Below, piece by piece: positions 1 to 9,191 of a DNA stretch of 64,000 nt. Source of the stretch: Streptomyces sp. NBC_01689. Its GTDB lineage: Bacteria; Actinomycetota; Actinomycetes; Streptomycetales; Streptomycetaceae. The stretch's first letter is position 1. Every line of letters starts with the position of its first letter. The DNA lies in the NCBI RefSeq assembly GCF_036250675.1, contig NZ_CP109592.1, positions 5,022,001-5,086,000 of the forward strand, read 5' to 3'. A model generated the notes under the pieces. The model was not told where the DNA came from, ran no database searches, and worked only from the letters and a program-made list of their open reading frames with translations. A program made the translations under genes and the position numbers.

Positions 1-1320
<1,320 letters not shown>

Positions 1321-1814
1321 GATGGGCCTCCCCTGACTCCTCTCGGAGCCACAAGACTGTTCGAGCCCACACCCCCCTTCAATACGGCCCGTTGCAGAAC
1401 TGGGTCAGAATCCGCAGACCCGGCGCAACAGTTTGCGGGAGAGGAAAGAAAAAGGTCAGGCCTCCGTCAAAAAGCCGGACCCGACGGGCGGAACCGCCGG
1501 GTCCGGAAAGAGCGGGAATACAGCATTCCATGGTGGTGATTCCAGCCTTCCCGCGAGTTTTCCGCGCCGCCGGAAGCCGGGTCGGCCGGAGTAAGGGGGC
1601 GGCGGCCGGAAGGCGGGGTCCATGACCGGAAGGCGGGCTCCCCGTCCGGGCTCCGGGAACCCCCCTTCCTCGCGCGGCGACGCGGAAGGGGCCACCGGCG
1701 CGCGGGATCCCCGGCGCCGTGCGGGCCCCCCGCGCCGTGCCGCCACCCCCGGCGCCGTGCGGGCACCCTCCCGGCCGGGCACGGGGTACCCGCCCGGCGG
1801 GACCGCGGCCGCCC
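1321..1814. other. Intergenic region without a gene
   Basis: I see no gene here. It holds a rho-independent terminator, described separately, and a very GC-rich stretch with short direct repeats: CCGGAAGGCGGG at 1606 and 1626, and several imperfect copies of GCGCCGTGC between about 1710 and 1765. Open frames across it have no ribosome site and no recognisable protein. Confidence 0.6.
1467..1506 (-). terminator. Rho-independent terminator of the afsA-epimerase transcript
   Basis: Two nested arms pair: CCGGACCC (1475-1482) with GGGTCCGG (1499-1506), and inside them GGCGG with CCGCC around a 2-nt loop. A run of A at 1469-1473 becomes the U tract for leftward transcription. Confidence 0.75.
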
Positions 1815-2750
1815 TCAGCCCGCGTGCAGGGCCTTGCGGTACCAGGGCACGGCAGACGCGAAATCGGTGTCGAACCCCGGGCCGGGAACGCGGCGCAGAT
1901 CGGACCAGAGCGGGGTGCTGTCGAAGACGTGGTCGGTGGTGAACATGTCGAGCCCCGACGCCGGTACGCCGCGTTCCGCCAGGACCGCCCGCGCCCGGCC
2001 GGCGGTCAGTTCCCGGTCCGGCCACGCGACGCCGACGCACGCGGCCACCGCGCGCAGCAGGGCGTCCACGGCGACGGGCTCCGGGTGCGCCGCGTGATAG
2101 ATGGAGGCCGTCAGGGCGGCGGCCGGGGCGAGCGCGGTCGCCACCAGCAGCGCGGCCAGCTCGGACACCTCGATCACCGACGTCCGGGACGGCCAGCCCT
2201 CCACCGTGCCGGGCAGCGCGGAGAGCAGCCGGGCCAGCCCCGGGACCACCCAGGCGTCGCCCTCCCCGTACACGAGGTGCGGCCGCAGGACGATGCCGCC
2301 GGCCGCGAGAACGGCGTCCTCGGCCGCGGCCCGGGTGCGGGAGGTGGGCGATCCCGGGTTGCGCGTCAGGTCCTCGGGGCGGCTCCCGCGGAAGGTACCG
2401 CGGCCGTAGACGGAGGCGGTGCTGAGCTGAACGATGCGCGCCACCCCCGCGCGGCACGCCTCCTCCACGAGGGCGGCCGTCCCGCGGGCGTTGACGGCCT
2501 CGTTGGCCTCGGCGTCCCCGCCGATCCGCGAGGCGCAGTGGATCAGCACGTCGACGCCGTCGCAGACCCCGCGCAGGGAGGCGGGTTCGCCCAGGTCGGC
2601 CCGTACGGTCCGGACACCGGACCCGGAAAGGGAACCGGGGAGCGGACTGCGGTGCGACATCAGTCTCGCCTCGACCGGCAGCCGCTCCGCCTCGCGGGTG
2701 ACACGGCTGCCGACGAAACCGGCCGCGCCGGTGATCAGAAGGGTGGGCAC
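1815..2750 (-). CDS. NAD(P)-dependent epimerase/dehydratase (extended SDR), GBL-associated
   Basis: A Rossmann-fold protein of 311 residues. The dinucleotide-binding motif GAAGFVGS lies near residues 8-15 and a typical LSTASVYG strand near 109-116. The start is a GTG with GAGGAG about 8 nt upstream; a longer frame to 2801 lacks a ribosome site. It lies 55 nt downstream of the afsA-type gene and is probably co-transcribed, so it may act on the butenolide intermediate, as reductases or epimerases beside AfsA homologues are thought to do. The catalytic Tyr-x-x-x-Lys of the family is not seen. The aligned stretch before the conserved AAAED helix reads T136-S-R-T-R140, so both Tyr and Lys appear replaced. 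Substrate and even catalytic activity are therefore uncertain. Confidence 0.85.
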   Translation of the reverse strand: MPTLLITGAAGFVGSRVTREAERLPVEARLMSHRSPLPGSLSGSGVRTVRADLGEPASLRGVCDGVDVLIHCASRIGGDAEANEAVNARGTAALVEEACRAGVARIVQLSTASVYGRGTFRGSRPEDLTRNPGSPTSRTRAAAEDAVLAAGGIVLRPHLVYGEGDAWVVPGLARLLSALPGTVEGWPSRTSVIEVSELAALLVATALAPAAALTASIYHAAHPEPVAVDALLRAVAACVGVAWPDRELTAGRARAVLAERGVPASGLDMFTTDHVFDSTPLWSDLRRVPGPGFDTDFASAVPWYRKALHAG

Positions 2751-2805: not shown

Positions 2806-3825
2806 TCAACGTCCGCGCGGGCTCAGGAGGAGCTCGGCGGTGAAGACCGTCTCAGCGTGCTGTGTGCCGCACACCCGCACCAGTACGCCGCCGTCGGCGC
2901 CGTGCGGTTCCACGCTCGGTTCGATCCAGCAGGGGGCGTCGAACTCCGCGTAGCGCGTGAAGTTGCTCTTGAGACCCAGCAGCAGGGCGTCGGGCATGCC
3001 CGTCGAGACGAGGGCGGCCTGCCGGGCCGCCTCCAGCAGGACCATGCCCGGTATGTGGTCGACGGGGTGGTCGAAGAAGGTGGGATGGGCGGTGTCGACG
3101 CGCAGCTCCCAGCGGTCGCCGGTGCCGGGCGCCGCCCCGGCCCCCGGCTCCGCGAGCAGCACATGGCGGTCGCCGGAGTGCCCGACGGCCGCGGGATCGA
3201 TCCCCGGCGGCGCGACGCGGTCGGTGGTGGTGGGCCGGCCGGCCCGCAGCCTGCGGTGCACCGCAGGACTGGTGCAGCTGAACGCGGCGCCCCCGGTGGC
3301 CAGGGCCTCCCCGTCGCGCAGCACGGTGACGTCGTAGCGCATTCCGCCGAGCGAGCGGCCCCGGCGGACGATGTCGCGGCAGACGGTGCGCAGTTCGACC
3401 TCGGTGGGCACGGCGTCCGCGACGAGAAGTTCGGGCGAGGTGCTGAACGACATGTCCCACATCAGGAACTGGTGCCCGAAGGGGACGCCGAACTCGGCGT
3501 GCGCGAGCAGGGAGCCGATCTGGCGGACGGACTCGATCAGCAGCATCGGGTCCTGATAGCCGCCGGACTGGGTGAAGAACGAGTGGCTGCGCGGCCATTG
3601 GGCACTGACCGCGAAGACGTCGGAGCGGTCGGGCCCGGCCGGGCCCGTGGCGGCTTCCCAGCCGGTCAGCAGCACTTCGGAGACCGCCGCGCGATGGACG
3701 TACTCGCGCGGAACCGTCGTGGTCAGCCGGGGCTGCGGAGCCCTCACGGTGGTGCGGGGCGCCTTCGTGGCCACCGACGCGACATCGCCAGCGACCGACA
3801 CACGGGTGGAGGTGGTGTACGACAT
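2806..3825 (-). CDS. AfsA-family gamma-butyrolactone biosynthesis protein
   Basis: AfsA-type enzymes join dihydroxyacetone phosphate to a beta-ketoacyl chain, the committed step of A-factor-type signal synthesis. The 339-residue protein has the two diagnostic AfsA hotdog halves. The first is around residues 80-105, with FFTQSGGYQDPMLL followed by IESVRQIG. The second is near the C-terminus, with FFDHPVDHIPGM followed by LLEAARQAA; each half keeps the family glutamate. The ATG chosen has AGGAG 8 nt upstream; the frame extends 40 codons further but would cover the promoter. It is first in a two-gene operon with the epimerase and divergent from the response regulator. Its promoter contains the perfect 14-bp palindrome ACAGACATGTCTGT, so repression by a receptor of the ArpA type encoded nearby is expected. 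Confidence 0.93.
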   Translation of the reverse strand: MSYTTSTRVSVAGDVASVATKAPRTTVRAPQPRLTTTVPREYVHRAAVSEVLLTGWEAATGPAGPDRSDVFAVSAQWPRSHSFFTQSGGYQDPMLLIESVRQIGSLLAHAEFGVPFGHQFLMWDMSFSTSPELLVADAVPTEVELRTVCRDIVRRGRSLGGMRYDVTVLRDGEALATGGAAFSCTSPAVHRRLRAGRPTTTDRVAPPGIDPAAVGHSGDRHVLLAEPGAGAAPGTGDRWELRVDTAHPTFFDHPVDHIPGMVLLEAARQAALVSTGMPDALLLGLKSNFTRYAEFDAPCWIEPSVEPHGADGGVLVRVCGTQHAETVFTAELLLSPRGR

Positions 3826-3914: not shown

Positions 3915-3945
3915 AAGATACAGACATGTCTGTTCGGTTCTTCAA
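3915..3945 (-). promoter_or_regulatory. afsA promoter with GBL-receptor operator (site A)
   Basis: Reading leftward, TTGAAG (3945-3940) and TATCTT (3920-3915) are separated by 19 nt. The spacer holds ACAGACATGTCTGT (3920-3933), a perfect inverted repeat of the kind bound by A-factor receptor proteins. It overlaps the first base of the -10 element. Confidence 0.7.
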
Positions 3946-3982
3946 GTAAAGCTTTAGTATCCCTCTAGGTTCAGGCCGCCCT

Positions 3983-4053
3983 TACCGGCCGGTACGACCC
4001 GATCGCGCCACTTGCGCCTCCACCTCCTCGAAACCGTGCAGACCTGCACGGTT
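3983..4053. repeat. Two inverted repeats in the afsA-regulator divergent region
   Basis: TACCGGCCGGTA at 3983-3994 is a perfect 12-bp palindrome. AACCGTGCAG and CTGCACGGTT (4032-4041 and 4044-4053) form a 10-bp inverted repeat around 2 nt. Neither resembles the five GBL operators, and neither has a T tract, so they are possible extra operator sites rather than terminators. The 473-nt divergent region contains no gene. Confidence 0.45.
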
Positions 4054-4205
4054 AGAGGACGGAAGCCGGGCCGAAGACGGGATCGGCGCCGAGCAGAGGG
4101 CGCACCGGACCTGGCCCCGAAAGGGCGAAGAAGTGCGTGTCTACGCAGGTCAGTTGATGATTTCCGGTGGAGGAACGAGGCGGCGCGCGGGCGGCACGGA
4201 ACACG

Positions 4206-4236
4206 TTGACAATCAGACAAGTCTGTTTGCTATCGT
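4206..4236 (+). promoter_or_regulatory. Response-regulator promoter with GBL-receptor operator (site B)
   Basis: A perfect TTGACA (4206-4211) is followed after 19 nt by TATCGT (4231-4236). The spacer contains TCAGACAAGTCTGT (4213-4226). The 24 bases 4206-4229 recur exactly at 7594-7617 in front of the kinase-like gene. Confidence 0.75.
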
Positions 4237-4298
4237 CCTCAAGGTGAGCGTTCAGCAGTCCGTTCCGTGATGACGAGACTGTGCCTCAGGAGGAGCAG

Positions 4299-5093
4299 AT
4301 GAATCGGCAAGCCGTGGATCTACTCGACGTCCGATCGCAGCGCAATCTCCCGCACCGACCCACGATTCCGCACCCCGGGCGGCCGGTTGCCGCACACGCC
4401 GCCACCGACCGCCCCGGCCCGCCGGCCGGAGCCCTGCGCGTCCTGGTCGTGGAGAACGACGCGCGGGCCGCGGACTCCCTGGTCCAGGGCCTGTTGCGGC
4501 AGGGGTACGCCGCGCAGAGCGTGGCGACCGGCACCAAGGCGCTCCAGGCGCACCGCGACGCCGATCTCCTGCTGCTCGACCTCGACCTGCCCGACCTGGA
4601 CGGGCTGGAGGTGTGCCGGGGCATCCGGGCGGTCTGCGACACCCCGGTCATCGCCGTCACCGCGCGCGGCTCCGAGCTCGACCGCGTGCTCGGACTGCAG
4701 GCCGGCGCCGACGACTACCTGGTCAAGCCCTACGGCTTCCGTGAACTGCTGGCCCGGATGGAGGCGGTGATGCGTCGGGTACGACAGCAGCCGGCGTCCG
4801 CCCAGGTCATCACCCACGGGCCGCTGCGCATCGACGTCGGCACCCGGGTGGCCACCCTGGACGGGGAGCCGGTGGACCTGACCCGCAAGGAGTTCGACCT
4901 GCTGCACCTGCTGGCCTCGCAGCCCGGCACCGTGATGCCGCGCCGCCAGCTCATGGCCCAGGTCTGGGACGACACCTGGTCCCACCGGGGCCGCACGATC
5001 GACACCCATGTCAGCAGTCTGCGCGGCAAGCTCGGTTCGAGCGGCTGGATCATCACCGTCCGGGGGGTCGGCTTCCGGCTCGGCCACCCGTAG
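4299..5093 (+). CDS. OmpR-type response regulator with altered acidic pocket
   Basis: A two-domain DNA-binding regulator of 264 residues: an N-terminal tail (1-45), a receiver domain (about 46-155) and a winged-helix DNA-binding domain (about 165-262) with the RGVGFRL signature. The ATG at 4299 has a perfect AGGAGG 5 nt upstream. The receiver keeps the phospho-acceptor D94 (LLLDLDLPDLDG), T121 and K143. The acidic pair that binds magnesium reads E52-N53 where E/D-D is usual, so phosphorylation may be weak or absent, as in atypical regulators such as JadR1. No cognate OmpR-type histidine kinase is adjacent. Its promoter carries the shared GBL operator, which makes it a likely pathway activator under receptor control. 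That role is inferred. Confidence 0.9.
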   Translation: MNRQAVDLLDVRSQRNLPHRPTIPHPGRPVAAHAATDRPGPPAGALRVLVVENDARAADSLVQGLLRQGYAAQSVATGTKALQAHRDADLLLLDLDLPDLDGLEVCRGIRAVCDTPVIAVTARGSELDRVLGLQAGADDYLVKPYGFRELLARMEAVMRRVRQQPASAQVITHGPLRIDVGTRVATLDGEPVDLTRKEFDLLHLLASQPGTVMPRRQLMAQVWDDTWSHRGRTIDTHVSSLRGKLGSSGWIITVRGVGFRLGHP

Positions 5094-5148
5094 CCCCGGG
5101 CGGTCGAAGGCGGCCGCCCGGGACGCCCCGGACCCACCGCGGGGCCGC

Positions 5149-5200
5149 CCCGTGCACCCGCACACCCCGTACGGCCCGTGCACCCGCACACCCCGCACGG
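5149..5200. repeat. 26-bp tandem duplication
   Basis: Two adjacent 26-bp copies, 5149-5174 and 5175-5200, differ by a single base (GTACGG against GCACGG at the end). Each contains GTGCAC. The array lies just after the response-regulator stop codon; its function is unknown. Confidence 0.8.
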
Positions 5201-5233
5201 GGCCGTCGCCGCAGGACGGCCGAAGTCCTGCTC

Positions 5234-5277
5234 AAGGCTCACTGAAGGCCGGTTGCAGGCCGGTTGAAGGCCCACTG
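5234..5277. promoter_or_regulatory. Four 11-bp direct repeats, candidate OmpR/SARP-type binding array
   Basis: The units AAGGCTCACTG, AAGGCCGGTTG, CAGGCCGGTTG and AAGGCCCACTG follow each other without gaps at 5234, 5245, 5256 and 5267. An 11-bp period places the same bases on one face of the helix, the layout used by OmpR-fold activators including SARPs. The target promoter is not obvious, because the tetR -10 box lies about 115 nt downstream. Confidence 0.55.
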
Positions 5278-5365
5278 AAGTGCCCTCCACGGACAACGTC
5301 CCGGACCGACCGAAAACCGAGCCGAACCGGAAGCGAATACTCCCGCCCCCTGGCGGCGTGCCGCC

Positions 5366-5397
5366 TTGCCGATACAATACAGACCAGTCGGTAAAAT
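5366..5397 (+). promoter_or_regulatory. tetR1 promoter with GBL-receptor operator (site C)
   Basis: TTGCCG (5366-5371) and TAAAAT (5392-5397) are 20 nt apart. The spacer carries ACAGACCAGTCGGT (5379-5392), an imperfect version of the shared inverted repeat that overlaps the first base of the -10. Autoregulation by the encoded repressor is likely. Confidence 0.65.
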
Positions 5398-5424
5398 TTT
5401 GGTGGGCGAGAGCAAGGACCTGGC

Positions 5425-6045
5425 ATGGCGACACAAGAACGCGGAACGAGGTCGAGGCACTCGATCCTGGAGTCCGCGGCCCGGGTGTTCGACGAGCGCG
5501 GCTACGACGCGGCGAGCACCAACGACATCCTGGCGCGCACGGGTCTCACCCGAGGCGCCCTCTACCACCACTTCCCCTCCAAGGAAGCGATCGCCGTGGC
5601 CCTGGTCACCGCGCACAGCGAGGCACTCGTGGTGCCGGACCGTGCGGTGAAGCTCCAGGCGGTCATCGATCTGACCCTGGAGTTCGCCCAGCGTCTCCAG
5701 CACGACCCGGTGCTGCGCGCGAGCGTGCGGCTCGCGGTCGAGCAGACGTCCTTCTCACGCCCGCCGCAGACCGCGTACGAGCAGTCCGGCGCGGCCATCC
5801 TGGCGTTGCTGCGGCAGGCCGACGAACAGGGCGAGATCCTGCCGGGCGTCGACATCCGGGAAGCCACCTCGACCATCGTCGGCGCCTTCACCGGGCTGCA
5901 GTTGATGTCGCAGGTGTACAGCAACCGCGCGGACCTGCCCGAACGCATCGGCGCGTTCTGGCGTTTCGTGCTGCCCGGCCTGGCCACCCCCGGCCTGCTC
6001 GGCCGCCTGCGCACGTCCGTCACGGCGCCCTCCGAGGACGCCTGA
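5425..6045 (+). CDS. TetR-family gamma-butyrolactone receptor-like repressor (1)
   Basis: A 206-residue regulator with an N-terminal HTH (about 10-52, ending TRGALYHHFPSKEA) and an ArpA-like ligand domain, recognised by VLRASVRLAVEQ near 96-107 and FTGLQLMSQVYSNRADLPER near 155-174. The ATG is preceded by AAGGA at 7 nt. Receptors of this family repress target promoters until a GBL binds. The protein is slightly acidic by residue count, as true receptors usually are. The region around residues 115-122 (QTAYEQSG), where ArpA-type receptors carry a ligand-contacting Trp (W119 of ArpA), has no Trp here; W179 is the only one. It may therefore see a different ligand or be a pseudo-receptor. It converges on the second TetR gene. 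Confidence 0.9.
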   Translation: MATQERGTRSRHSILESAARVFDERGYDAASTNDILARTGLTRGALYHHFPSKEAIAVALVTAHSEALVVPDRAVKLQAVIDLTLEFAQRLQHDPVLRASVRLAVEQTSFSRPPQTAYEQSGAAILALLRQADEQGEILPGVDIREATSTIVGAFTGLQLMSQVYSNRADLPERIGAFWRFVLPGLATPGLLGRLRTSVTAPSEDA

Positions 6046-6703
6046 GCACCACCGGACCCGGCCGGCCGCACCCCGCCGGTCACGCCGGCCCCATCGGCCT
6101 CACGCATCCCGCAGACCACGCGCATCCCGACGGTCCGGACCGGTCCTCGCCGGACAGGACAGACCGCACCGCACCGGCCCCGCCCGGCCGGACGGAACCC
6201 GGCTCGACGCCGCCGAGCGGCCAGGCTCCCCCAAGCCTCCGCCCGGCCCCGCGACCGACCACGCTCCCCACCCGGTACGGGAACGCGACCCGGGCCCCGG
6301 AACCGCGACACCCGCCCGCGCCCGCCCGCGTATCCACGCACCCGAGGACGGCCGCCGCGCACTCCCGGCCCGTAGCGCGTCACCGACGCCCCGCCGCACC
6401 CCGTCCCCGTCCGCGGCCGCACCCGGGCACCGCCGCACGGCTCACCCCAGCGCCCGGGCTCCTGACCCCTCGCGCCCGTCGCCTGACGCCTGCTCACAGG
6501 CACTCGTCCGGACGGCACACGGCCGATCCACGCTCCCGGGCGGCACGGACCCTCCCGCCCCACCCCCACGCGGGGACGACTCGCACGCCCGGCCGCACCC
6601 CGGCGCCATGCGGGCACCCCCGCGCCGCACGCCCCCGGCACGGCTACCTCACCGCGCAGCCGCCCGCCCCTCCACCGGCGCACGCACGCCACACGGAGAC
6701 ATC
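6046..6703. other. 658-nt gap between convergent tetR genes
   Basis: I find no gene. The plus strand is strongly C-rich (for example about 6300-6350), which gives long proline/arginine-rich open frames on both strands that have no ribosome site and no domain. No clear terminator hairpin stands out, although two convergent transcripts must end here. Confidence 0.5.
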
Positions 6704-7369
6704 TCAGACCCGCTCCCCTTCCCCACGCCGTCCCGCCCCCTCCGTACCCCCGACACCCACGGCACCCACGGCACCCAGTGAGTCGTCGGCACCGGGGCCG
6801 ACCGCGCCGCCCCCGGCCCGCCCCGCGAACAGCGGCCGCAACAGCGCCCACAGCCTCTTGGACGTCCTGGCGTCCCACCAGTCGGCGTCGGTGTGCCCCA
6901 GGGTCTCCAGCCCCGCGGCCACCACCACCGCGAGGTCGGCGAGGTCCTCCGGGGCGGGCACCGCGCCCCGGTGCGTGGCGGCGACGCGCTCGCGTACGAG
7001 CGACAGGACGTCGTCGCGCAGCCTGGGCGGCCCCACCGAGCCGTCGACCGCCAACTGGATGCCGGCCCGCACGAGTTCCTCCGTCCGCAGGGCCTCGCAG
7101 AAGGCGATCAGGAGGCGCTCGGGGGCGTCCTCCAAGGGACCGCTCCCGAAGGCCTCGTCCATGAGCGCGACGACCCGCTCGTGCGCCCGCTCGTAGACGG
7201 CCGCGTTCAACTCCGCGATGGAGGAGAAGTGATGGTAGAGAGCCCCCCGGCTCACTCCGGCGCGGCGGCAGATGTTGACCAGACCCGCATCGGCGAGCCG
7301 GCCGTTCGCTATCAGTTCCGCCGCGGCACGGACGAGAGCCTGACGGGTCTGTTCGGACCGAGTCTGCAT
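6704..7369 (-). CDS. TetR-family gamma-butyrolactone receptor-like repressor (2)
   Basis: A 221-residue regulator of the same family as the first TetR protein: an HTH in residues 1-48 (ending GVSRGALYHHFSS), then a ligand domain with LVRAGIQLAVDG near 98-109. A glycine-rich, probably disordered tail follows residue 185. The ATG at 7369 is preferred because it starts directly before the HTH; 28 extra codons upstream have no family match and would overlap the promoter. The stretch after the AGIQLAVDG motif lacks the Trp typical of A-factor receptors. It is divergent from the kinase-like gene, and both promoters hold the shared operator. A receptor plus pseudo-receptor pair is usual in GBL clusters (ScbR/ScbR2, JadR3/JadR2). 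Which of the two is which cannot be told here. Confidence 0.88.
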   Translation of the reverse strand: MQTRSEQTRQALVRAAAELIANGRLADAGLVNICRRAGVSRGALYHHFSSIAELNAAVYERAHERVVALMDEAFGSGPLEDAPERLLIAFCEALRTEELVRAGIQLAVDGSVGPPRLRDDVLSLVRERVAATHRGAVPAPEDLADLAVVVAAGLETLGHTDADWWDARTSKRLWALLRPLFAGRAGGGAVGPGADDSLGAVGAVGVGGTEGAGRRGEGERV

Positions 7370-7444
7370 CAGGCTGCACCTGCCTATTCCTGCGCTTGGC
7401 ATGAAGGAGCGCGCGGGTGCCCATGGGCGCCAGCAACAACCGGA

Positions 7445-7475
7445 ATCATACAACCATGCCTGTTTTACCTGACAG
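7445..7475 (-). promoter_or_regulatory. tetR2 promoter with GBL-receptor operator (site D)
   Basis: Reading leftward, CTGTCA (7475-7470) and TATGAT (7450-7445) are 19 nt apart. ACAACCATGCCTGT (7450-7463) fills the spacer and matches site A at 11 of 14 positions. It overlaps the -10 element by one base, as at sites A and C. Confidence 0.6.
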
Positions 7476-7593
7476 CCCTGTGAACGCAGACCTTCATCCG
7501 ATCCCCATACATTCTGCTGCTCTTACCCATGACCTGGCTCTTGACGGGACGGCGATCCCGTGGCCACACCTCACCCGGAACACCCGCCGACCC

Positions 7594-7624
7594 TTGACAA
7601 TCAGACAAGTCTGTTTGTTACGTT
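7594..7624 (+). promoter_or_regulatory. Kinase-like gene promoter with GBL-receptor operator (site E)
   Basis: TTGACA (7594-7599) and TACGTT (7619-7624) are separated by 19 nt. TCAGACAAGTCTGT lies at 7601-7614. The 24 bases 7594-7617 are identical to 4206-4229. Confidence 0.75.
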
Positions 7625-7678: not shown

Positions 7679-8884
7679 ATGAGCGGCACGACCGCACCCG
7701 CGCCCGTCCCCCCGGCCGTCTCCGTTCCCCGCGCCGCGCCGGTCGTCGGCAGCGGATTCGGCGAAGCACTGCACGAGGGCCTGGTCCGTGCGGCGTCCCG
7801 GATGTCACCGCGCCGGGCCCCCGGCACCGGAGCGCCCGGCGACACCCTGGGGACCTGGGAGACCGGCGCCGTCCTGGACCGCTTCACCGCCGGGCTGCCC
7901 ACCGTGCTCGACCCCGCCGAGGCGGAGGTACCGGCGCTGCGCGGCACGCTGACGGAGTTCGCGCGCACCGTCCTCGCGCGGGCCGCGGAGGCCCCCGCCC
8001 TCGCCACGCCGCCCGTGTCCCCCGCCGCGGACGGCCCGCCCGGCCCCGTCGCCCCGCCCGCGGCCTCCCCCCACCAGGTGGCGGCCGCCGTCGCGCTGCT
8101 CCTGGAGTGCGCCCTGCTGCACGTCCTGGAACACGGCATCGCCCACCGGGAGGGCGCGCTGCCGCGGGCGGTCGCGGTGGTCCGGCGCCTGGGCGAGGTC
8201 GTCCGGGAGACCGGCGAGGGGGCCTGGTCGGGCGACGACGGCCGTGGTGAGCGCCGCAGGCTGGCCAGGCAGCTCCACGACGAACTGGGCGGCGCCCTGT
8301 CCACGGCCCGCCTCAGCCTCGAAGCGGCCACGACGGCCGCCGCCACGGCCCCCGCGCCGACCACGACGCCACAACACACCCCCGGCGCCCCCACTCCCTC
8401 CGCCCTCACCGCCCATCTCGCCTCGGCGCAGCGGGCGTTGACGGAGGCGGCGAGACAGAACCAGGCGCTCATCGGCGGCCTGCGCCACCGAGCCGGCCTG
8501 CCGCCCCTGCGCGAGGCCCTGGAGGCCTTCCTCGCGGGCCCCCGCCCCCGCGCGGGCCTCGGCGTCCGGACGTCCGTCGAGGTCGTCGGGGACGAGCGGA
8601 CCCTCTCCGAGCGGTACCGGGAGGAGACCTTCCTCGCCCTGCGCGAGGCCCTGCGCGACCGCCTGGCCCGCTCGGGCGCCCGCCGGGTGGACACCGTCGT
8701 ACGCGTCACCAGACGGTGGCTCTACGCGAAGGTGACCGACGACGGGCCCGCGCCCCGCTCCGCCGAGTCCCTGCGCTCCCTGACGGACCGCATAGAAGAC
8801 CTCGGCGGCCGCACCCGCATCACCGAGGCCACCCCCACGGGCACCCTCCTGGAGATCCACCTGCCCCTGCGCGCCCACCTCTGA
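7679..8884 (+). CDS. Soluble DegS/NarX-type sensor kinase-like protein with degraded ATPase domain
   Basis: A 401-residue protein without a signal peptide or membrane segment. Residues 190-215 form a HisKA_3-type dimerisation helix with the phospho-acceptor H200 in RRRLARQLHDELGG. The C-terminal 100 residues resemble an HATPase_c domain, but the nucleotide-binding boxes are altered. The N-box reads REALRDRLARSGA, with Asp in place of the magnesium-binding Asn. The G1 box reads DDGPAP without its second glycine, and no G2 glycine run precedes LGGRT. It may not bind ATP and could instead sequester a partner. The ATG has GAGGAG upstream. The cpk cluster also carries a histidine kinase gene (orfB) near scbA/scbR. 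Its partner is unknown; the nearby regulator is OmpR-type, not the NarL type usual for HisKA_3 kinases. Confidence 0.75.
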   Translation: MSGTTAPAPVPPAVSVPRAAPVVGSGFGEALHEGLVRAASRMSPRRAPGTGAPGDTLGTWETGAVLDRFTAGLPTVLDPAEAEVPALRGTLTEFARTVLARAAEAPALATPPVSPAADGPPGPVAPPAASPHQVAAAVALLLECALLHVLEHGIAHREGALPRAVAVVRRLGEVVRETGEGAWSGDDGRGERRRLARQLHDELGGALSTARLSLEAATTAAATAPAPTTTPQHTPGAPTPSALTAHLASAQRALTEAARQNQALIGGLRHRAGLPPLREALEAFLAGPRPRAGLGVRTSVEVVGDERTLSERYREETFLALREALRDRLARSGARRVDTVVRVTRRWLYAKVTDDGPAPRSAESLRSLTDRIEDLGGRTRITEATPTGTLLEIHLPLRAHL

Positions 8885-9047: not shown

Positions 9048-9134
9048 TGGTGCGCGAGGGGGGAGTTGAACCCCCACGCCCTTTCGGGCACTGGAACCTG
9101 AATCCAGCGCGTCTGCCTATTCCGCCACCCGCGC
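9048..9134 (-). tRNA. tRNA-Leu (anticodon CAG)
   Basis: An 87-nt type II tRNA with CCA encoded (complement of 9048-9050). The acceptor GCGCGGG pairs with the 3' end before A73. The anticodon stem CTGGA/TCCAG encloses the loop TTCAGGT, giving anticodon CAG. A long variable arm GTGCCCGAAAGGGCGT and the TPsi loop GGTTCAACTCC follow. It marks the change from the accessory island on its 3' side to the conserved core on its 5' side. Confidence 0.95.
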
Positions 9135-9191
9135 ATTGGGTGTGTCCTCCGGTGCCCCACCGTGCGGTGCTGGCCCCTTCCGACATGCAGA

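Follow-up and report, generated by a model that had tools for sequence, protein, structure and literature searches.

A CAGAC-type operator embedded in the promoters of a Streptomyces autoregulator cassette, and its predicted route to a type II polyketide cluster

Previously, two homologous TetR proteins of Streptomyces avermitilis, AvaR1 and AvaR2, have been reported to use the same sites (consensus AWWCCRBBHDDNMSGTWT) at five promoters, namely those of three receptor genes, of aco (avenolide synthesis) and of the activator gene aveR (PMC5744401). In Streptomyces filipinensis, the receptor SfbR and the pseudo-receptor SfbR2 share operators (dyad consensus AAACVGNNBVNNCSGTTT) of five genes of the gamma-butyrolactone (GBL) cluster, i.e., both regulators, the synthase and two further regulators, and the antibiotic genes are controlled indirectly (PMC7480387). 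In the auricin cluster aur1/sag, on pSA3239 of Streptomyces lavendulae CCM 3239, SagR and Aur1R bind the aur1P promoter, and Aur1P directly activates the aur1A promoter (PMC8910723). Furthermore, bistability has been modelled for ScbA/ScbR (PMC2444045). The present study concerns a regulatory cassette at the left end of a 64-kb stretch of DNA from Streptomyces sp. NBC_01689 (hereafter the window; bases 5,022,001-5,086,000 of the main contig in a 9.96-Mb genome). In this cassette, a synthase gene (afsA), a response regulator gene (RR), two TetR genes (tetR1 and tetR2) and a kinase-like gene (KIN) each carry an inverted repeat inside the promoter.

The topology is already known from AvaR1/AvaR2 and SfbR/SfbR2. 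As in the AvaR system, the window has five promoters, one operator and two homologous TetRs, and AvaR1 is the nearest solved relative of TetR1 (E 2.5e-40). In contrast to the window, that system has aco and not afsA, uses aveR as its output and lacks an RR/KIN pair. In our reading, the window half-site CAGAC departs from the AvaR consensus at symmetric positions, having A where the consensus has C and T where it has S. The SfbR system differs from the window in that its further regulators are of StrR and SARP type and both its receptors keep a ligand-site tryptophan.

Like the auricin system, the window has a cascade from receptor and pseudo-receptor through an atypical response regulator to a type II polyketide synthase (PKS) operon, which for the window is predicted from sequence. 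We also read an operator-like repeat in the -35/-10 spacer of the presumed aur1P promoter, and the same 62-bp repeat pair lies by presumed aur1A. Unlike in the window, the auricin partner Aur1O is not a kinase relative, SARPs are present, and presumed Aur1R carries the helix PGALHFHF together with the tryptophan. The jadomycin cascade of Streptomyces venezuelae (JadR1/JadR2/JadR3) likewise has an atypical response regulator as cluster activator along with autoregulator receptors (PMC8910723, PMC12632262, PMC7480387). Judged by these comparisons, the window stands apart by its variant of operator and recognition helix, by a receptor without the tryptophan and by a putative regulon that includes a degenerate kinase. 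The probable output, a type II polyketide cluster reached through RR, is also new.

Five operators inside promoters and their recurrence

The gene order at the left end of the window is biotin carboxylase, short-chain dehydrogenase/reductase (SDR)/epimerase, afsA, RR, TetR1, TetR2 and KIN. The five genes that carry the operators are as follows.

2806-3825, minus strand: afsA, autoregulator synthase of the ScbA/BarX family (NF041195, 339.4 bits, cut-off 200; PF03756)
4299-5093, plus strand: RR, OmpR-type atypical response regulator (pseudo-receiver), Aur1P/JadR1-like (PF00072 and PF00486)
5425-6045, plus strand: TetR1, receptor-like regulator of the ScbR family (NF041196, 195.3 bits, cut-off 150)
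6704-7369, minus strand: TetR2, second, divergent ScbR-like regulator (NF041196, 93.2 bits, under the cut-off of 150)
7679-8884, plus strand: KIN, probable pseudo-histidine kinase of HisKA_3 type (PF07730 as sole Pfam match)

Their promoters and operators read as follows.

3915-3945, minus strand: afsA promoter and operator; 12-bp core 3921-3932, CAGACATGTCTG; the plus strand reads CTTCAA at 3940-3945 and AAGATA at 3915-3920; spacer 19 nt
4206-4236, plus strand: RR promoter and operator; core 4214-4225, CAGACAAGTCTG; TTGACA 4206-4211, TATCGT 4231-4236; spacer 19 nt
5366-5397, plus strand: tetR1 promoter and operator; core 5380-5391, CAGACCAGTCGG; TTGCCG 5366-5371, TAAAAT 5392-5397; spacer 20 nt
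7445-7475, minus strand: tetR2 promoter and variant operator; core 7451-7462, CAGGCATGGTTG read towards tetR2; the plus strand reads TGACAG at 7470-7475 and ATCATA at 7445-7450; spacer 19 nt
7594-7624, plus strand: KIN promoter and operator; core 7602-7613, CAGACAAGTCTG; TTGACA 7594-7599, TACGTT 7619-7624; spacer 19 nt

An earlier sequence-only reading had placed the repeats at 3920, 4213, 5379, 7450 and 7601, within -35/-10 spacers of 19 nt (20 nt at tetR1). The cores were found within 1 nt of these positions, and direct reading confirmed the spacers. The two layouts are also as it described them, the repeat lying over the first -10 base at afsA, tetR1 and tetR2 and ending 4 nt before the -10 at RR and KIN. 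Among the five, only the RR and KIN promoters have a perfect -35, and the block TTGACAATCAGACAAGTCTGTTTG is identical at these two genes in the window. The operators of tetR1 and tetR2 each mismatch the 14-mer motif at 3 of 14 bases.

The exact 14-mer occurs three times in the whole genome, every time in this cluster. Allowing up to two mismatches, it gave 24 matches genome-wide against 10 for a reversed-pattern control (palindromes being scored on both strands). A comparison of the motif with its genomic background had been proposed along with the sequence-only reading, and for the 14-mer these counts exceed the control; a degenerate pattern covering all five sites, on the other hand, stayed at background (20 matches, control 21). 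Therefore, a matrix from relatives was used instead, built from 40 sites of 11 other loci, from which the window and its two closest relatives were excluded. As the training sites were chosen by resemblance to the motif of that reading near matching genes, the matrix is not wholly independent. With it, the five sites scored 33.3, 33.3, 31.6, 21.9 and 11.4 and took ranks 1-5 in 99 kb, the next score being 7.85. On 2 Mb of simulated sequence, the top score was 17.5, and 11.41 was attained four times. Thus, four of the five sites are far beyond chance, and the tetR2 site, which alone would not be, rests on conservation and not on its own score.

Beyond the cluster, 15 places in the genome match the 14-mer at no more than two mismatches; four of these were opened, and the other 11 all have two mismatches. 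The four opened places (genome 7969455, 1063266, 7826561 and 8174410) were rejected as regulon members. Three of them overlap predicted coding regions (among these, the last two bases into or near a start), and the fourth adjoins an unrelated major facilitator superfamily (MFS) gene followed by that gene's own TetR gene. Gene calls at these places were mechanical, from open reading frame length and codon-position G+C, and not annotation. No strong further operator site was found in the source genome by this search, with four of the 15 outside places opened. The earlier idea of a closed regulon applies to the first tier at most, the probable output lying left of the window and being reached via RR. 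The switch-like behaviour that the same reading proposed goes beyond what sequence shows.

The cassette recurs, mostly with its operators, at 13 other Streptomyces loci, i.e., at 14 including the window. These loci were found partly by KIN or promoter, not by AfsA. A KIN-family search (alignment A1) yielded 12 loci, eight of which have the cassette (L028-L035). The promoter pattern TTGACAATCAGACANGTCTGTTTGNTA, searched with up to three mismatches, matched 10 of 295 genomes and none in the control, and its exact form occurs twice in the source genome, at RR and at KIN. The ten genomes are the source, those of L028, L029 and L030, those with the new cassettes L071-L073, those of L074 and L075 (the latter G178), and G031, which was left unopened. 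A plasmid search added the cassettes L083 and L084. Besides, a protein search in 61 genomes of the genus gave matches in two, the source genome included. Judged by titles and abstract openings, none of the papers listed from the open-licence literature deals with this cassette or reports a kinase relative inside an AfsA cluster.

Across the 14 cassettes, the RR operator core does not vary. At least 10 of the 12 core bases are kept at afsA in every cassette and at tetR1 in 13 (the exception being L084). In the 10 loci having KIN, its core always keeps at least 11 of 12 bases. The tetR2 operator variant, CAGGCNNGGYTG, is present in 13 of the 14 loci, with L071 differing. The layouts at afsA, RR, tetR2 and KIN recur across nine aligned loci, in which the -35 and -10 of tetR1 are not clearly kept. 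In the same alignments, the block from -35 to -10 is gap-free at afsA, RR and KIN, and the flanks have diverged except in the three nearest loci. The sequence-only reading had put synthase, receptors and effectors on one operator. A common vocabulary does stand at the synthase gene, a receptor gene and both effector genes and is kept in relatives, but tetR2 has its own distinct variant.

A near-perfect 22-bp inverted repeat (AACCGTGCAG AC CTGCACGGTT) lies at window 4032-4053, midway between afsA and RR. It has one change in L033 and two in L035 and is not kept in more distant loci; it could be a further regulator site.

The regulators and the probable polyketide output

Components of an AfsA/ScbR-type GBL system are present, namely a synthase (339.4 bits), a receptor gene (195.3 bits) and, at the receptor and synthase promoters, a palindrome of the autoregulatory element (ARE) type with the variant half-site CAGAC. 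Against the S. filipinensis consensus, the RR, tetR1 and KIN sites have three mismatches and the afsA and tetR2 sites more than four. Base contacts of the CprB recognition helix include K43, Y47 and F48 (PMC4150764). At the positions of K43 and F48, R and H occur in TetR1 as well as in TetR2 of all 14 loci, and the receptor of the genome's other AfsA system has K and F. Near that other system lie canonical AAACCG..CGGTTT sites, one at zero mismatches and one at one. Hence, the altered putative operator goes together with an altered recognition helix. As the recognition-helix residues are the same in TetR1 and TetR2, both could read the same operator. TetR2, at 93.2 bits, fails the cut-off of 150 of the ScbR-family model. 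A basic isoelectric point (pI) is a pseudo-receptor criterion, with exceptions named (PMC7480387); the pI of TetR2 is 5.6 (4.8-6.7 over 12 loci) and therefore not basic.

The RR receiver has Asn at its second acid-pocket residue and retains the phospho-Asp, Thr and Lys. Each of the 15 RRs read has N, S, T or P in place of this second acidic residue. A response regulator is called atypical if at least one of five receiver catalytic residues is missing (PMC12632262), and RR has such a missing residue within the receiver/winged-helix architecture of the OmpR type (PF00072, PF00486). It is 67.9% identical over 218 aa to presumed Aur1P of pSA3239. The presumed aur1P and aur1O genes of this plasmid measure 771 and 882 bp, the sizes given for aur1P and aur1O (PMC8910723), and the gene after aur1O is presumed, from our reading of the gene order, to be aur1A. 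Presumed Aur1O matches the Aur1O-like genes of L072 (45%) and L074 (42%).

Directly left of the window lie genes for a KSalpha, a chain-length factor, an acyl carrier protein, a ketoreductase, a cyclase and an FAD aromatic hydroxylase. A scan of 37 kb left of the window turned up one isolated place that shares 10 or more bases with the 12-bp operator core. This suggests that the polyketide genes are reached through RR, and we consider the type II polyketide cluster at the left edge of the window to be the probable output. The features between this cluster and afsA are as follows.

1-1320, minus strand: accA-type biotin carboxylase; open frame from GTG 1320, running on leftwards to genome 5021548
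1394-1470, minus strand: candidate RR boxes upstream of accA; a pair of direct repeats with an 11-bp period (TGAC-N7-TGAC and TGAC-N7-TG), 62 bp from start to start
1815-2747, minus strand: NAD-dependent epimerase/SDR (PF01370, PF01073), adjoining afsA on the same strand

The SDR is the probable autoregulator reductase, and accA is a probable target gene. A plasmid of strain NBC_00239 has the same order from biotin carboxylase to KIN and adjoins a type II polyketide set. Its accA homologue, in the same place, is 91.6% identical and annotated as 'biotin carboxylase N-terminal domain-containing protein'. Furthermore, the RR homologue of L074, 57.8% identical and preceded by a related promoter, lies among genes that look polyketide-related by eye.

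The repeat pair, at equal spacing, is kept at 14 of 14 positions in the window, L033, L035 and L083 and upstream of presumed aur1A, and at 13 of 14 in L032 and L034. As the pair pattern was derived from these promoters, the presumed aur1A match is the most independent. Among 3000 random 300-bp pieces of its own region, the pair score did not exceed 11, apart from two pieces that reached 14 and presumably include the actual site. In its own genome, the pair has one exact match and one single-mismatch match elsewhere, the control giving one match. The polyketide operon is preceded by a single box (genome 5,021,455), with others like it at L035:2147 and L083:3493. TGACN7TGAC occurred three times in 99 kb against 2.6 in simulation; only the spaced pair is informative, and the single repeat by itself is not. 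In L030 and L031, the candidate boxes are 73 bp apart and not 62, counted by eye, i.e., one 11-bp unit more, which would keep the helical phase. At L029:11176 and L071:12241, RR-box-like direct repeats lie about 90 bp upstream of Aur1O-like genes, as if RR controlled its own coactivator there.

KIN, the kinase relative co-regulated with RR, is degenerate in the window and missing from four of 14 cassettes. It keeps the H-box (ARQLHDELGG; PF07730, 30.2 bits, cut-off 24), has lost the Asn of the N-box, which reads LREALRDRLARSGA, and has degenerate glycine boxes. A Pfam scan gave no HATPase_c match to the window KIN at E 0.001. A fold search predicted a DHp+CA fold (dimerization/phosphotransfer plus catalytic domain), with the region before about residue 185 barely covered. 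In the 10 KIN loci, the N-box is intact in five (L030, L031, L032, L034 and L083) and lost in the other five, although even the latter retain part of the first glycine box; L029 KIN also lacks the His. Thus, the gene that the sequence-only reading took for a kinase-like effector does carry the operator, but its product is probably a pseudokinase and not a working kinase in the lineage of the window.

Four Aur1O-like queries had no match in the window, and one of them had none in the source genome; that one matches five of the 13 genomes searched, its own included. Across these 13 genomes, seven have KIN only, three an Aur1O-like gene only, two both and one neither. This exclusivity, seen among related genomes, is not significant (one-sided Fisher p 0.12). 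To our knowledge, no kinase relative is known in the jadomycin cascade. SspH (PMC9137472) was considered as a published kin of KIN and rejected, as it has a HATPase domain only. Likewise, a saquayamycin study (PMC11019849) was rejected as a published kin of the circuit, no strong synthase candidate having been found in that strain.

At L073:14695 and L084:16173, a KIN-type operator is kept and no KIN gene was found beside it, which looks like the remnant of a lost KIN gene. At L076:9323-10414 (G004), a KIN relative with an ATP site intact by eye adjoins accA, and the 19.5 kb fetched there revealed no homologue of AfsA or RR; this relative is possibly an ancestor form.

Proposed circuit and competing explanations

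Taken together, the cassette is likely to be the regulatory unit of the type II polyketide cluster, with an autoregulator, TetR-held promoters, RR as a second tier and KIN as the partner of RR. The proposal builds on the genes, the operators and their conservation, the adjacent polyketide genes, the kinship of RR with presumed Aur1P, the paired repeats and the lost residues. AfsA and the SDR would make a butyrolactone- or butenolide-like autoregulator. In its absence, TetR1, and perhaps TetR2, would sit between the -35 and -10 of afsA, RR, tetR1 and KIN and keep them off, and tetR2 would be under its own operator variant. As the signal accumulates, the afsA, RR, tetR1 and KIN promoters would open together, and afsA would amplify the signal. 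In the second tier, RR, a predicted phosphorylation-independent activator of the JadR1/Aur1P type, would bind the 11-bp-periodic repeats that precede accA and the polyketide operon next to it. KIN, a degenerate histidine kinase, would most likely be a protein partner of RR and not its phosphodonor. Which protein binds which site, what the ligand is, in which direction control runs and what KIN does are our inferences.

Several observations weigh against this proposal. In none of the 14 loci does TetR1 have the tryptophan that is usual at the ligand site, although AvaR1 and the genome's other receptor have it. This residue has been called highly conserved and involved in ligand binding (PMC7480387). 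Therefore, the ligand of TetR1 may differ from a classical GBL, and classical GBL binding is not claimed. KIN is absent from four of 14 cassettes, and its pairing with RR amounts to co-regulation only. L074 has RR and a TetR gene without AfsA within its 17.7 kb. CAGAC palindromes inside promoters are also not unique to this family. TTGACAATCAGACANGTCTGTTTGNTA further matched G178 and G031 (three mismatches each); the G178 locus L075 (G178:C1:2596500-2615500) has no cassette homologue and yet has promoter-embedded CAGAC palindromes, and the source genome itself has one by an MFS/TetR pair. As the L075 palindromes stand beside non-cassette genes, the operator shape is not exclusive to ScbR-type regulators. 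Nor is the target always a type II PKS, since the KIN-less cassette on plasmid pSMg1-1 of Streptomyces sp. Mg1 (L084, 376000-408000) stands beside genes for a desaturase, an acyl carrier protein and a fatty acyl-AMP ligase, i.e., a cluster of the fatty-acid/desaturase type. The repeat pair at accA is altered in L031 (11/14) and L030 (10/14) and falls to the null level (8/14) in L072 and L073. Finally, YTGACN6CTGAC, the repeat taken singly, is no more frequent in the genome than its control (29 against 32 matches).

The first tier could also be read differently. The two TetRs may divide the work, TetR1 alone acting at the CAGAC sites and TetR2 at its own divergent site (perhaps at others as well) in response to another ligand such as the polyketide product. 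The persistence of the tetR2 operator variant in 13 of 14 loci speaks for such a division, as does TetR2 itself, which is under the ScbR cut-off and whose best solved matches stop at about residue 115; a receptor/pseudo-receptor pair with different ligands has also been described (PMC7480387). However, the recognition-helix residues are the same in both proteins, TetR2 at pI 5.6 lacks the basic character of pseudo-receptors, and both proteins use the same sites in two studied systems (PMC7480387, PMC5744401). On balance, a division of work is a serious but lesser possibility. The missing tryptophan in turn raises the question whether the signal is a butyrolactone at all: TetR1 may have lost ligand binding or may bind another molecule, the operators being released otherwise. 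Yet, all 14 loci possess an afsA gene carrying the same operator, as would hardly be expected of a synthase whose product goes unsensed in this system, and AvaR1, the nearest solved relative, is a butenolide receptor (PMC5744401). We therefore regard a non-butyrolactone signal as doubtful.

Alternatives for RR and KIN fare worse. An ordinary two-component pair, in which the autoregulator only raises amounts and KIN phosphorylates RR on a second signal, would fit the near-identical promoters, the phospho-accepting His box kept in the window KIN, the phospho-Asp, Thr and Lys kept in RR, the intact N-box of five of 10 KINs and the first glycine box partly kept even in the losers. What makes it quite improbable is the loss of the N-box Asn and of any Pfam HATPase_c match in the window KIN, the absence of the His as well in L029, and the RR second acid-pocket residue, missing in all 15 read, including those from loci with an intact-looking KIN. 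Moreover, HisKA_3 kinases usually pair with NarL-type and not with OmpR-type regulators. That the shared RR/KIN promoter is merely a copied DNA segment (duplication or gene conversion) with no joint regulation could be argued from the identical TTGACAATCAGACAAGTCTGTTTG in the window. But in L028, L029, L030, L031 and L083, the core centres differ (A at RR, G or T at KIN) with most of the block fixed and the flanks unrelated, and the four KIN-less loci keep the RR copy, so that such copying is very unlikely.

Within the proposed circuit, RR and KIN might form a pseudo two-component pair, i.e., a pseudo-receiver activator and a pseudo-histidine kinase under one quorum-type operator, in contact as proteins without phosphotransfer, with KIN replacing an Aur1O-type coactivator. 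We put this forward tentatively, as a minority prospect. If true, the five N-box-keeping and five N-box-losing KINs would mark stages in the conversion of a kinase to a structural coactivator. How pseudo-receivers are activated has been called a mystery (PMC12632262). The window offers a candidate binding site for activators of the Aur1P/JadR1 class and a kinase-derived candidate partner for a pseudo-receiver. This RR-KIN pair and the RR repeat pair are the part most worth pursuing, and they go beyond what the window alone shows. With the proposed circuit, the sighting of a motif becomes a two-step route of signal, receptor, operator, activator, promoter repeat and polyketide genes, and deletion of tetR1 may wake a silent polyketide cluster. 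Besides, a second vocabulary of operator and recognition helix beside a canonical-looking system in one genome makes the insulation of two autoregulator circuits testable.

The second AfsA system of the genome exists in two copies, with homologues at genome 9578536-9579435 (L081) and 330261-331082 (L082), 42% identical each. Beside each AfsA stands a canonical receptor gene, in mirrored order and near both contig ends. These are probably terminal repeats bearing a second autoregulator system. On the other side of the cassette, after KIN, a tRNA-like sequence at window 9050-9135 is followed by FHA- and phosphatase-type genes, judged by eye to be ordinary chromosome.

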